Positions 6,001 through 12,589 of a stretch of 64,000 nt of DNA are shown one piece after another. The notes under the pieces are model-generated. The model ran no database searches. It was not told the origin of the DNA and was given only the letters and a program-made list of their open reading frames with translations. A program made the translations under genes and the position numbers. This DNA is from Roseomonas sp. (GTDB lineage: Bacteria > Pseudomonadota > Alphaproteobacteria > Acetobacterales > Acetobacteraceae). Each line of letters opens with the position of its first letter. The first letter of the stretch is position 1. Location: positions 62,001 to 126,000 of the forward strand of contig JADCGA010000010.1 of the NCBI GenBank assembly GCA_020249265.1, given 5' to 3'.

Positions 6001-7305
6001 TCAGGGTCGGCCAATGGATGAATAGGTAAATCCGGCAGCGCGCATCGCCGCAGGTTCCCAGATATTGCGAAGATCGAGCACAATACGGCCCTTCATGGCG
6101 GATTTCAGGCGATCCGGCGCCAGCGCCCGAAATTCATTCCACTCCGTCAGTACCACCAGCGCATCGGCACCCGCTGCCGCATCCAGCGGGCTTTCGGCAT
6201 AATGCACCGCTTGCGGCAGCACCTGGCGGGCATGGCCGGGCTGCGGGTCGAAGGCGCGGAGAACCACTCCCGCCGCAGCCAGCTTGGGCAGGATGGCAAG
6301 GGATGGCGCATCGCGCATGTCATCGGTTTCGGGCTTGAAGGTCAGCCCTAGTACGGCCACCACCTTGCCCGCAGGGTTCGGGCCAAGGGCGGCCAGGATG
6401 CGGTCTGCCATTTGCGGCTTGCGCGCCTCATTCACCGCAATGGTTGCCTCCACAAGCCGCAGTGGCGCGCCGGCATCCTGCGCGGTATGGGCCAGGGCCA
6501 ATGTGTCCTTGGGGAAGCAGGAACCGCCATAGCCCGGGCCGGGATGGAGGAATTTACGCCCAATCCGCCCATCAAGACCCATGCCGCGCGCCACATCATG
6601 CACATCGGCGCCGACTTTTTCGCAAAGATCGGCGATTTCATTGATGAAGGTGATCTTGGTCGCAAGGAAGGCATTGGCGGCATATTTGATCAGCTCCGCC
6701 GTCTCAAGGCTGGTCGCCAAAACTGGCGTCTCAATCAGGTAAAGCGGCCGATAGAGCCGCTTCAGCACGGCGAGCCCCTGATCATCCTCAACCCCAATGA
6801 CCACGCGGTCCGGGCGCATGAAATCACCAATCGCGCTGCCTTCACGCAGGAATTCAGGGTTGGAGGCGACGCTGATGGCAAGGTCGGGCCGCACGCGCCG
6901 CACATTGGCGCGCACTTCCCGCCCGGTGCCAACCGGCACGGTGGATTTCGTCACCAAAACAAGCGGGCCGGTGGCGGCGCGCGCCACTTCCTCAGCCGCG
7001 GCATAAACATAGGAAAGGTCAGCATGCCCATCGCCGCGCCTGGTTGGCGTGCCGACCGCAAGGAAAACGGCATCCGCCCCGGCGATGGCGACGTTCAAAT
7101 CCGTGGTGAAGCCAAGCCGCCCGGCGGCGACATTTTCCGCGACCAGCTTATCCAGCCCCGGTTCATAGATTGGCATGCGCCCTTCATGCAGCGCGGTGAT
7201 CTTGGCGGGGTCCACATCCATCACCGTCACATCCACACCAAATTCCGCGAAGCAGGCGCCGGATACCAGGCCAACATAGCCGGCCCCGATCATGGCGATG
7301 CGCAT
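6001..7305 (-). CDS. ugd: UDP-glucose 6-dehydrogenase
   Basis: 434 residues. An N-terminal Rossmann motif ([10 protein letters not shown], residues 7-16) binds NAD, the central domain carries the catalytic thiol C263 in [10 protein letters not shown], and the C-terminal UDP-binding domain contains [16 protein letters not shown]. The enzyme oxidises UDP-glucose twice to UDP-glucuronate, a precursor for exopolysaccharide, LPS or aminoarabinose. The ATG at 7305 is preferred to an upstream in-frame start at 7338 because AAGGAG lies eight bases before it and the Rossmann strand begins directly. It lies between the truncated MprF-like gene and the phosphomannomutase gene, all on one strand. Confidence 0.95.
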
Positions 7306-7368
7306 GGTCTTCTCCTTAAAGCTGAAGCGGCCCTGCAATGGCGCGGCAAGCCATGGCTGGCAAGGGGT

Positions 7369-9324
7369 TCAAGCGACCTCTCCGCCACGGGGCAGCAGGG
7401 GGCGCAGGCTTTCCAGATCACGCTCGGCCCGGCAAACCAGATAGCGCGGCGCGGCGCCATCCGGGTCCAAAGGCAGCGCTGTCAGGCCGATATCGCTATA
7501 GATACGCAATAATTCAGGCCCAACACGCCAGAAGGCCGCGTCAACCCGCGCGGCTTCGCATAGGTCGCGGAAGCGCCAAATGGCGGAAACCCTGTCCCGC
7601 GCCTCACCCGCCGGATCGCCCAAGGCCAGCCAAACCCCATCCCGCTTCAGGAAGGCAAAACCCGCGCGGCCTGCCTCGCCAAACACCGCGCCATCGGCTG
7701 CGGTAAGCGCGGGCGCCATGGCGCCCAGGGCCAAAAGCTTCTCCTGCACCGGCGCAGTATAGGCCAGCACCGGCGGGCGCGCGGGCAGCAATAGCCGAAA
7801 CGCCGCGACCAGAAGCAGCAACGCGGCCAGCGCCACCGTAAAACGGAGCGAATCCGGCGCATCCGCCGCCAGCACCACCCCCCACCAGGATCGGTCGGCG
7901 AGGTTGCTCTGATAGGCCACAGTCGCAAGCGTCAGCCCGCAAATCGCACCGGCGGCGAGCGCGCCCAGGCCATCAGCCGAAATGGCTTCCCCGATCAGCC
8001 GTGCATGGCGATAAAAGGCGCCGCGCGCGGTCATCAGCAGCAGCGGCACCAGCAGAAAGGCCGCGATCAGCCACAAAGGCTCCCCGCGCAGCACCAGAAT
8101 CAGTGCGCCATTTGCCAGCAGAAAAAGCGAGGCCCACCAGGCCAGCACCAGCCGCCGCACCAGCCCGTAAGCTGCGGCAAGCAATAGGGAGCCAACCACG
8201 GAAGCGGCGAAATGGCTGGCGGCGTCTTCCAGGAAATCCGGCACGGGGCCAAGCAGGCTTGGCTTGGGCGGCAGGGCGCCGATGAAAATCAGCACCAGCG
8301 CGGCAAGGCCCGTGAGGCCCGCCAGCGCCGGCACTTCAAAGGAAATCGCTATGCCACGATCCGGCGCCAAGCGCGCGACCAGCTTGCGGCGCTGGCTGAC
8401 TTCAAACCCCGCGAATAGCGCGCCGGCCAGGAAAAGCGGGATGATGTAGTAAAACAGGCGAAACAGCAGCAAGGCGCCGACAATGGCGGGGGTGGGCATG
8501 AAGCCGGCCAGCGCAAACAAAATGGCGCCATCAAAAACACCAATGCCGCCCGGCACATTGGCCGCCAGCCCCGCCATATAGGCGGCGATATAAATGCCCA
8601 GAAAATGCAGAAAGCCGAGCCCTTCCGCCGGTGGCAGCAGGGCGTAGAAAATCATGGCGGTGACTGCGACATCGGCTGTGGCCAGCGTCACTTGGGCAAG
8701 CGCGATGCGAAAGCCGGGCAGGTCAATCTGATGCCCGAAAAGCCGGATATGCGGCACGAAGCGCGCCAGCACCACATAGGTGATCACAATCGCCCAGCAG
8801 AAAAATCCAAGCAGCGGCAGGACCCAGCGCGGCGCGCCCGGCCCCAGAAACGTCAGAAGGTCGGGTTCCAGCACCAGCACCAGCCCTGCAATGGCAAAGC
8901 CCCCCAGCCCGAAAGTAAGGGAGGTAATGGCAATCACCTTCGCAATGGCAACCGGCGCCAAGCCCCAGCTGGCGTAAAAGCGATAGCGCACCGCTGCCCC
9001 GGACACTGTCGCAAAGCCGATATTATTCGCCAGTGAATAGGCGCAGAAGGAAGCCAAAAAGGATCGCCGCCAGGAAACCGGATGGCCGGCATAGATGGAC
9101 CCCAACCGGTCATAGGCTGAAAGCAGCAAATAAGCGCCAATGGTGCAGCCTGCCGCAAGCCAAAGAGCGGCAGGCGGCGTGGCATGCAGCGCGGTTTGGA
9201 TATCCTGCCAGGAAAGCCCACGAAACTCGCGCTGCACCACGTAAAGCGCGCCCACCAGCAGCAACAGCCCGAAGCAGGTCGGGCCGAAACGCTTGAGCAG
9301 GGAAAGCGCGCCTTGTCGCTTCAC
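7369..9324 (-). CDS. MprF-like membrane protein with truncated lysyltransferase domain
   Basis: 651 residues; complete MprF proteins have about 840-870. The first roughly 500 residues form a polytopic membrane region: the UPF0104 flippase-type domain (residues 1-310), then a second hydrophobic block. From about residue 525 the cytosolic DUF2156 domain begins and is recognisable through [19 protein letters not shown] and [19 protein letters not shown], but the protein stops soon after. The second GNAT-like half, which carries the transferase site, is absent. Only 63 bases separate the stop from ugd, so no continuation exists downstream. The GTG start overlaps the lysS stop (GTGA), implying translational coupling. 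Probable role: handling of aminoacylated or other lipids; the ability to make lysyl-phosphatidylglycerol is doubtful. Confidence 0.8.
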
Positions 9325-10943
9325 GCCGGGGCGTTCTCCGCCCGTGCCAGCGCGGTTTCAATCAGGCCAATGGTGCCGGCCACGCCATAAAGCGCGATGA
9401 AGCCACCAAAGCGCGGGCCTTCTTCCTGGCCGAGCAGCACCTGATACAGCGCATTGAACCAGGCGCGAGACACGCCCATGCGCCCATCCTTGCCCGCTTC
9501 CAGGAAGGGCTCTTGGCGCCCGGCATCAAAGACCAAATCCTGCGCGACCTTAGCGCGTTCTTCTGGCGGCATGGCTTCCAGATCTGCCGCGCGGTCACGC
9601 AAGGCCACCATCAGCGCTGACAGTGCTTCCCGCTCAGCCTCGTTTGCGTTGCGGAAGCGCTTCGTGGGGGCGACGAAATCGCGGTAATAGGTCACTGCAT
9701 AGGAAACGAGTTTGCCAAGCAAAGGCTGCGTTACTGGTGTGGCGCCCGGCGCGTAGCGGGCAAGGAAACCCCAGAGCAAATCAGGATCATCCGCATTCAC
9801 CACACTCGCCAAATTCAGCAGCATGGTGAAGGAAACCGGCGGTTCCGGGTCATTCGGTGCGGCGCTGCGATGAATATGCCATGCCGGGTTGGCGGCATCC
9901 GGCGTGGTGCGGAGCCTGGTGCGGTGTTGCAGATATTCATCCACGGCGCGCGGGATTTGGTCGAAATAAAGCCGCTTGGCCCGCTGCGGCTGGTTAAACA
10001 TGAAAAGTGAAAGGCTTTCCGGCGGCGCATAGCGCAGCCATTCCTCGATCGTCAGGCCATTGCCCTTGGATTTGGAAATCTTCTGCCCCTGCTCATCCAG
10101 GAAATGCTCATAGGTGAAGCCCTCAGGCGGCGCGCCGCCCAGCACGCGACAAATCGCGGAAGAAAGCCGGACGCTATCAATCAAATCCTTGCCCGACATT
10201 TCATAATCCACGCCAAGCGCATACCAGCGCAAAGCCCAATCCGCCTTCCATTGCGCCTTGCAATGCCCGCCCGTGATGCGCGTGCCGTAACGCTCCCCGC
10301 TATCGGGATCGCGCCAGACCAGCATGTCCTGATCGGGGCGGATCTCCTCCATCGGCACCTGCATCACCACGCCGGTTTTCGGGTGAATGGGCAGGAAGGG
10401 CGAATAGGTGGCGCGGCGATCGGGGCCAAGCGTCGGCAGGATCACTTCCAGCACCTTGGCATGGTTTTCCGCCATCCTCAGCAGCGCCGCATCAAACTTG
10501 CCCGAACGATAGTAATCGGACGAAGACGCGAATTCATAATCAAAGCCGAAAGCATCCAGAAAGGCGCGCAGCCGCGCATTATTATGATGCCCAAAGCTTT
10601 CATGCGTGCCGAAAGGATCAGGAATGGCCGTCACAGGCCGCCCGATATGCGTGGCCAGCATGTCCTTATTCGGCACATTATCCGGCACCTTGCGCAGCCC
10701 ATCCATATCATCGCTGAAGGCGAGCAGGCGCGAAGGCATGCCCGTGAGCTGCGTAAAGGCATGCTTGATCCAGCTTGTGCGCGCCACTTCGCCGAAAGTG
10801 CCGATATGCGGCAGGCCGGAAGGGCCATAGCCGGTTTCAAACAAAGCCGCTTTTTTGCCGGAAGCGGCCAGGCGGGTCGCGACCTTGCGCGCCTCCTCAA
10901 AGGGCCAGGCCTTCACGGCGGAAAGATCAGCGGCGGCAGACAT
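9321..10943 (-). CDS. lysS: Lysine--tRNA ligase, class I
   Basis: 540 residues. This is the class I (archaeal-type) LysRS, not the class II enzyme: a Rossmann-type catalytic domain with HIGT at residues 46-49 and the KMSKS-equivalent KISKSKGN near residue 288, then an alpha-helical anticodon-binding C-terminus. It charges tRNA-Lys with lysine. Class I LysRS is known from archaea and many alphaproteobacteria. Its last four bases overlap the start of the MprF-like gene; a LysRS joined to MprF is known as the mycobacterial LysX fusion, but that uses a class II synthetase. The upstream gap of 146 bases to the divergent asd gene should hold its promoter. Confidence 0.95.
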
Positions 10944-12103: not shown

Positions 12104-12589
12104 GTGATCGTGAACCGATCTAAGCAGGAAGGGTTTTCGATCCGCGCGGCACTGCCTTCTGATCTTGAGGGCTTGGCCGCGCTTTATCCGCATCTCAACC
12201 CATCCGATGAACCGATTTCGCGCGACCTGGCGACTGCCCGGCTGGACGCCATCAACCAGATTCCTGGCAGTATGGTTCTGCTTGGTCTGCTGCATGACGA
12301 GCTTGTCGCCTCCTGCACCTTGATCGTCATCCCGAATCTAACCCGCGGCGGAAAGCCTTACGCCTTGATCGAAAATGTTGTGACCCATGCCGGTTACCGG
12401 GGACGAGGTTATGGGACGAGCATCCTGCATGCCGCGGCGAAGGCCGCTTGGGATGCCGGGTGCTACAAGGTCATGCTGATGACCGGTTCAAAACAGCCAT
12501 CCACCCTAAAATTCTATGAGAATGCGGGCTTCGAGCAAACCAAGACTGGCTTTCAAATGCGTCGCATGGCTGCGCGACATGATGCTTAG
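12104..12589 (+). CDS. GNAT-family N-acetyltransferase
   Basis: 161 residues. The acetyl-CoA pyrophosphate loop is visible as VTHAGYRGRGYGTSIL (the Q/R-x-x-G-x-G/A motif as RGRGYG), preceded by a strand with ALIENVV and followed by a helix and the KVMLMTGSK strand, which is the usual GNAT order. Such enzymes transfer an acetyl group from acetyl-CoA to an amine; the acceptor here is unknown. GTG at 12104 is the likely start, with a second GTG two codons later possible. It is 15 bases after asd and 47 before a helicase gene on the same strand. Confidence 0.8.
   Translation: MIVNRSKQEGFSIRAALPSDLEGLAALYPHLNPSDEPISRDLATARLDAINQIPGSMVLLGLLHDELVASCTLIVIPNLTRGGKPYALIENVVTHAGYRGRGYGTSILHAAAKAAWDAGCYKVMLMTGSKQPSTLKFYENAGFEQTKTGFQMRRMAARHDA

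Follow-up and report, generated by a model that had tools for sequence, protein, structure and literature searches.

The lysK–mprF Gene Pair

The 64,000-nucleotide stretch of Roseomonas sp. DNA (family Acetobacteraceae) analysed here, referred to as the window, carries on its minus strand a gene for a lysyl-tRNA synthetase (LysRS), lysK, followed directly by a gene for a short protein related to MprF, the bifunctional synthase-flippase of lysyl-phosphatidylglycerol (Lys-PG). The coordinates of both genes and of the subdomains discussed below are collected in Table 1. Both open reading frames (ORFs) lie where the original prediction, made from the sequence of the window, had placed them, and the TGA of lysK and the GTG of the mprF-like gene share an overlap of 4 nucleotides (nt), GTGA. 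The synthetase belongs to class I according to PF01921 (403 bits) and NF001968 (788 bits, cut-off 648); its score with TIGR00467, the other class I LysRS model, is 136 bits, below the cut-off of 147.55.

Table 1. Features of the lysK–mprF locus, with positions numbered from the first nucleotide of the window.
Feature	Position	Strand	Basis
lysK, class I lysyl-tRNA synthetase, 540 residues	9321–10943	-	PF01921 and NF001968
Short MprF-like protein, 651 residues, GTG start	7369–9324	-	PF03706, partial PF09924, NF033480 alignment
Lipid-transport subdomain 1, residues 12–315, with D218, P258, D265, R289 and Y292	8380–9291	-	PF03706, residue counts
Second membrane subdomain, residues 316–517, with R439; transmembrane (TM) segments 9–14 by analogy with MprF	7774–8379	-	NF033480 alignment
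Single GNAT fold (GNAT1), residues 518–651	7372–7773	-	PF09924 positions 25–99 of 298, model, Foldseek
Closing strand predicted for the single GNAT fold, residues 628–631, inside the conserved tail	7432–7443	-	Prediction; tail conservation
UDP-glucose dehydrogenase-like gene (ugd), downstream, outside the conserved pair	6001–7305	-	Adjacent in 4/52 loci

The membrane part of the short protein is recognized by PF03706 (LPG_synthase_TM) at residues 19–299, with 50.7 bits against a cut-off of 33.4. The tandem-GNAT synthase domain is incomplete, as PF09924 covers only profile positions 25–99 of 298 (38.2 bits, cut-off 27.5) and the structure model described below contains a single GNAT fold. The alignment to NF033480, the model for bifunctional MprF, spans profile positions 5–623 of 841 and reaches 345.7 bits, below the equivalog cut-off of 600 bits. 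By sequence, the closest proteins of solved structure are MprFs from P. aeruginosa, R. etli and R. tropici, which align to about residue 623. A search of the Pfam and NCBIfam profiles for a domain hidden after residue 525, which the original prediction had named as a possible objection, found no match beyond residue ~620. The window genome encodes one such protein, and a profile search of that genome revealed no second PF09924 match.

Several other causes of the short gene were rejected. Chance is not the cause, given the end point common to the relatives and the recurrent pairing with lysK. A frameshift or assembly error is ruled out, since relatives share the same end and only 63 nt separate the mprF stop from the likely ATG of ugd at 7305; the missing ~200 residues consequently cannot sit out of frame downstream. 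A missing synthase half elsewhere in the genome was rejected, as PF09924 matches the MprF-like protein alone. The GNAT gene at 12104–12589 was rejected as the missing half, as it encodes an Acetyltransf_1 protein on the opposite strand. The ugd ORF is annotated from a TTG at 7338 (6001–7338, minus strand), and the ATG at 7305, which lies behind AAGGAGA, is the likelier start.

Apparent Loss of the Synthase Chemistry

According to PMC2774229, exchange of K547, K621, E624, D731, R734 or K806 in S. aureus MprF abolishes Lys-PG synthesis. The first three of these sites correspond to positions 544, 618 and 621 of the window protein, where the residues D, P and P are found; the match was made on the motif and on the spacing of 74 and 77 residues, rather than by alignment of the S. 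aureus sequence. Full-length MprFs carry K, K and E at these positions in 24/24, 23/24 and 23/24 rows, while the corresponding counts for the short proteins are 0/113, 2/113 and 21/113, in rows that are not fully independent as some genomes are counted twice. The equivalents of D731, R734 and K806 fall, by position, past the end of the short protein. All six lysyl-transfer residues are missing from the window protein, three with the absent second GNAT fold (GNAT2) and three by substitution. As originally predicted, a protein that lacks the second GNAT half should be unable to transfer lysine in the way known for MprF. Among positions conserved in at least 90% of full-length rows, those retained in at least 90% of short rows amount to 23/28 in subdomain 1, 7/22 in TM9–14 and 7/30 in the C-terminal part, with D in place of E scored as lost.

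Conservation of the Transport Subdomain and the Remaining GNAT Fold

In R. tropici MprF, residues D234, Y303, R304, Y307 and E280 are described as lying at the Lys-PG cavity or its gate, and P273 in the gate loop (PMC8131360). Motifs, residue spacing and the predicted secondary structure were used to map these sites onto the short proteins. D234, P273, E280, R304 and Y307 correspond to D218, P258, D265, R289 and Y292 of the window protein, and Y303 to F288, so that the cavity residues recur with two changes, E280 to D and Y303 to F. Across the 131 short proteins P258, F288, R289 and Y292 are each invariant (131/131), D218 is D in 123 and E in 8, and D265 is D in 128 and E in 3. R456 of R. tropici MprF is reported among the residues that contact GNAT1, at D604, E611, D635 and R639 (PMC8131360). 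Its counterpart, the docking arginine R439, is invariant, both in the short rows (113/113) and in the full-length ones (24/24). D587 and D611 are kept in 113/113 and 106/113 short rows, and the equivalents of the GNAT1 contacts D604 and R639 are lost in the short forms.

Every part of the short protein is under purifying selection. Ratios of nonsynonymous to synonymous substitution rates (dN/dS; NG86, ratio of means) among 12 close relatives (66 pairs) are 0.066 for the transport subdomain, 0.095 for TM9–14, 0.044 for GNAT1 and 0.091 for the tail. A wider genus set of 15 members (105 pairs; 102 usable for the tail) gives 0.212, 0.360, 0.148 and 0.289, figures that are rough because dS is high. 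On these comparisons GNAT1 is the most constrained and TM9–14 the least constrained of the three domains.

The original prediction described DUF2156 as cut short after about 125 residues. The absence of the second GNAT half is borne out, but the end does not look ragged: according to the prediction, the retained part makes up a complete GNAT fold, last strand included. An AlphaFold2 model of residues 518–651 has a mean predicted local distance difference test score (pLDDT) of 88.3 and a predicted template modelling score (pTM) of 0.83, and includes a closing strand (628–631) and a last helix. Foldseek places this model on the first fold of MprF synthases, at 0.8–1.1 Å over 74–75 columns in most rows. 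In extended alignments of 103–113 columns the fit loosens to 2.1–4.7 Å, so the closing strand rests on prediction. The model of the whole protein (pLDDT 78.8, pTM 0.58) has the cryo-electron microscopy structures of MprF as its best Foldseek matches, at 25–32% identity. An 11-residue tail motif (window 7408–7440, minus strand) resembles the LRYALNRAERDG-like stretch that opens the second half of full-length MprF; the resemblance is perhaps the scar of an internal deletion, or due to chance.

Distribution in the Acetobacteraceae

Relatives of the window protein, whether short or of another form, were found in 276/299 family genomes and 96/102 genera (E ≤ 0.001). Among 150 genomes drawn from the order, all of which are listed as Acetobacteraceae, 148 match. 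PF09924 matches occur in 171/200 family genomes, and complete or nearly complete ones in 12/200, each with an additional second match, among the matches listed with complete ones sorted first. Full-length-type MprF paralogues are found at L131–L142, L233 and L235–L240, and the copy in genome G064 appears broken. In the class at large PF09924 matches 38/385 genomes; a match limited to the first ~100 profile positions is seen there in four Acetobacteraceae genomes and in G360, from another family. Some weak partial matches that differ in shape come from G444, G475, G491 and G650.

None of the 128 lysK-linked genes with a visible end exceeds 735 residues (approximate count), so that relatives with a complete DUF2156, which would have pointed to a frameshift in the window, did not turn up among them. 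The short lysK-linked proteins measure 643–735 residues (approximate count) and full-length MprFs 840–872. The short form is the usual one in the Acetobacteraceae, neither a local frameshift nor a decaying remnant. Members from small genomes (L328 in G124; L326 and L327 in G087 and G173) have 652–709 residues, and their match to the window protein ends at residue 314 in G124 and 588 in G087 and G173. At L013 of G031, from the genus of the window genome, an in-frame TAG follows ~155 mprF codons, and the matches in G164, G244 and G337 hold one stop each; these may be pseudogenes or sequence errors.

A match is absent from 23 family genomes, and class I lysK was sought in the 20 of them that were listed. 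Ten of these, taken up again below, have lysK with unrelated genes behind it, and G060, G202 and G307 fall outside the comparison of lysK neighbourhoods, for instance where the contig ends. No strong class I lysK match was found in the other seven, which are 72–98% complete; either the assembly may have a gap at the gene pair, or another kind of LysRS may be in use.

Linkage to lysK

The linkage of the short gene to lysK was assessed at one locus in each of 130 genomes having the gene, the window included, three of whose contigs start too near the gene to judge. At 127/127 testable loci, from 65 genera, class I lysK is found in the same orientation no more than 700 nt upstream. Among public contigs with less than 80% identity, which were retrieved with the window protein and therefore represent its closer relatives, lysK is upstream at 55/55 loci, ugd lies downstream within 500 nt at 4/52, and an opposite-strand asd is found in the upstream stretch at 20/48. 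Consequently, the lysK–mprF pair outlives the local gene order. The spacing between the two genes, taken to the start codon nearest the start of the window protein, is -4 in 51 and -1 in 8 of 70 public-contig loci; at 95 further genome loci, some from the same genomes, 49 overlap, 75 lie within 30 nt and four are more than 100 nt apart. A plasmid search returned 331 records, every best place being below 60% identity, with no close copy among the matches listed. A promoter scan gave 0 matches against 1.1 expected, and terminator-like sites numbered 10 against 6.7 expected, neither figure being informative.

Beside full-length genes the linkage was not seen: lysK was absent from the sequence examined around 6/6 intact full-length paralogues in the Acetobacteraceae, which for one of them extended just 0.65 kilobases (kb) upstream, and around 18/18 full-length MprF loci of other alphaproteobacterial families. 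The lysK linkage accompanies the form unable to transfer lysine. This bears on the original comparison with Mycobacterium LysX, in which the LysRS fused to MprF is of class II. LysX (NF002821) likewise joins a lysyl-tRNA synthetase with an MprF-type protein, but the window has separate genes, a class I synthetase and no working transferase to be expected, and its match to NF002821 is 14.7 bits. The proposed analogy, a LysRS that feeds a lysyl transferase, is therefore not supported, as it is the transfer-incapable form that is linked to lysK and none of the 24 full-length genes examined is.

Trimmed Forms and an Evolutionary Series

In two genera (g114, 5/5 genomes; g93, 6/6) the gene ends after the transport subdomain, at 313–324 residues, and still lies directly behind lysK (loci L313, L315, L316, L320 and L323 in g114; L329–L334 in g93). 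PF03706 scores 47.0 bits on L313, above the cut-off, and 27.7 bits on L329, below it. Searched with a profile of the short form, the 0.2–3.1 kb downstream of the trimmed genes gave no convincing match (best E 0.41). In all 11 trimmed forms the cavity positions hold D, P, D, F, R and Y. In the tree each genus forms its own clade (support 0.999 for g114 and 1.0 for g93), and the two are not sisters, which suggests two separate trimming losses; a node above them is weak (0.395).

A tree built on 603 columns unites 41 of the 131 short proteins in one clade (0.952). The sister of this clade, with support of 1.0, is L231 of G360 (L231:2616–4988, minus strand), a 790-residue MprF relative from another alphaproteobacterial family whose three catalytic positions hold D, P and A. 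The second half of L231 has no Pfam match and no lysK lies in the 7.5 kb examined around it. The protein is rare (2/9 genomes of its family match), and two of four neighbours scanned have Pfam matches, to a D-Ala-D-Ala ligase and to a chemotaxis-signalling protein with a cyclic nucleotide (cNMP) domain, which give no functional clue. A tree of subdomain 1 again recovers the lysK-linked clade (0.946), with 19 full-length-type sequences, not L231 alone, as its sister. Taken together, a series is suggested that would run from the full synthase through a dead synthase with a degenerate second half and the single-GNAT form to the transport subdomain alone. Catalysis would have been lost first and the second fold afterwards, and we infer that the lysK linkage arose within the Acetobacteraceae.

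Proposed Function

It is proposed that the short protein is a former aminoacyl-lipid synthase that has turned into a lipid flippase or scramblase co-expressed with LysRS and that itself makes no lysyl-lipid, a reading which we regard as fairly probable and which bears out the original suggestion of a flippase paired with the synthetase. With GNAT2 gone and the catalytic residues of the first fold replaced, the synthase would have been switched off, and GNAT1 would stay docked and cap the membrane part, in a structural or a regulatory role. Through putative translational coupling to lysK, production of the protein would be kept steady alongside that of a housekeeping synthetase. The protein would then carry lipids that other enzymes have made from one leaflet of the inner membrane to the other, with ornithine lipid, or bulk phosphatidylglycerol (PG) and phosphatidylethanolamine (PE), as candidate cargo. 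A 14-TM piece of S. aureus MprF is reported to raise outer-leaflet Lys-PG when a synthase is supplied in trans (PMC2774229), and P. aeruginosa MprF is described as scrambling many lipids in vitro with no need for an energy source (PMC11980842). Because the membrane part is separable in the one protein and scrambles in the other, lipid movement without synthesis is the likeliest function. That most of the Lys-PG cavity persists in forms without a synthase speaks for transport, rather than substrate hand-off, as the role of the cavity.

Ornithine lipid is a candidate cargo and no more. For several genera of the Roseomonas type, an aminolipid is listed without identification (PMC8414978). The PF13444 protein of the window genome is OlsB-like, although its scores of 265 and 263 fall short of the respective OlsB cut-offs of 320 and 350. 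We know of no ornithine-lipid transporter. A family-wide unit in which the former synthase is dedicated to aminolipids such as ornithine lipid, or is coupled to LysRS so that the distribution of envelope lipids tracks the supply of lysyl-tRNA, is a possible but rather doubtful extension.

A number of observations weigh against the proposed flippase. The S. aureus 14-TM piece alone gave no peptide resistance in the account of PMC2774229, and blocking the cavity of P. aeruginosa MprF did not slow scrambling in vitro, its authors suggesting that the site may pass PG to the synthase (PMC11980842); since the blocked protein still scrambles, conserved cavity residues are no proof of flipping. PF13444 enzymes are present in 40/40 family genomes tested, including 11 where the short gene was not found, and so ornithine lipid is not singled out by co-occurrence; PF13444 also matches in E. 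coli. N101 (N117 in R. tropici) is lost in 6/11 trimmed forms and kept as N in 5/11. The whole-protein model is of moderate quality, with its pTM of 0.58 and TM-scores to MprF of 0.44–0.52, and its pLDDT falls below 50 at the cavity motifs 101–106 and 258–260. GNAT1 is strongly constrained in the short forms yet absent in two genera. In ten genomes (five of g78, four of g121 and G081; L286–L295) lysK is followed by unrelated genes with no MprF relative there, so the short gene is not essential throughout the family. Finally, pairwise alignment continues for ~9–20 residues beyond the stop in three of the five g114 loci, and the trimming in g114 may therefore be recent.

The original prediction also raised the possibility of a remnant. 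In its strict form, a decaying former Lys-PG synthase that lingers only through the operon shared with lysK, this is very improbable. The descent stands, as the clade is related to full-length MprFs in the way a descendant would be, and decay could be read from the further losses in two genera, the alignments that run slightly past the stop in g114, the absence of the gene from some genomes, the early stop in G031 and the stop-containing matches in G164, G244 and G337. The gene is nevertheless family-wide, being found in nearly all sampled genera, with purifying selection in every part, a conserved tail and conserved transport residues, and GNAT1 is predicted as a complete domain. The least probable account of those considered is that a lysyl-lipid is still made, by a homodimer of single GNATs or with a second GNAT protein elsewhere, fed by the adjacent LysRS. 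Such an arrangement would explain the pairing with lysK, and MprF dimers are known (PMC8131360), but the window protein has none of the six essential residues, its genome holds no further PF09924 match, a complete domain is present in just 12/200 family genomes, and the forms without GNAT retain the lysK pairing.

Retention of that pairing as the most constant feature, though lysine transfer is gone, would suit a membrane protein that tethers or regulates LysRS at the membrane, with lipid transport secondary or lost. This is improbable, given that most cavity residues are kept even in the smallest forms, that these forms lack the cytoplasmic domain, the natural contact site, and that ten genomes have lysK without the gene. 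Another unlikely role, and a sub-case of the proposed flippase, is that of a general housekeeping lipid scramblase like YbhN of E. coli, the lysK link then providing steady expression only. Unfused transport domains such as YbhN are noted in PMC11980842 and the small forms share that make-up; on the other hand, the lysK pairing far outlives other local gene order and most members retain a conserved GNAT1.

Comparison with Known Systems and Implications

The short protein shares its membrane part, first GNAT fold and cavity residues with the bifunctional synthase-flippases MprF/LpiA (R. tropici 7duw, P. aeruginosa 9goe, S. aureus), from which it differs in lacking the second GNAT fold and the catalytic residues, in its length (643–735 as opposed to 840–872 residues) and in its position directly behind lysK. 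Stand-alone LPG_synthase_TM proteins such as YbhN have the transport domain without an enzyme, as do the 313–324-residue forms; compared by make-up only, the window form differs in retaining TM9–14 and one GNAT fold and in being linked to lysK. LysX2 of M. tuberculosis is also an MprF-family variant of unusual make-up. According to PMC8974105 it retains a synthase-like domain of 343 residues in which four TM segments are predicted, and the window protein shows the opposite loss. No description of the lysK/short-mprF pair was found among the matches listed in the open-licence literature, which does not prove that none exists.

By appearance, the short proteins represent a natural and widely conserved separation of the two functions of MprF. 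The cytoplasmic lipid cavity of MprF has been assigned to transport (PMC8131360), whereas a hand-off of PG to the synthase has been suggested instead (PMC11980842), and proteins that keep the cavity without the synthase can directly test these two roles. The naming of these genes as lysyl-PG synthases would be wrong for nearly the whole bacterial family. The short protein is a candidate lipid transporter for a family whose aminolipids remain listed as unidentified in several genera (PMC8414978).

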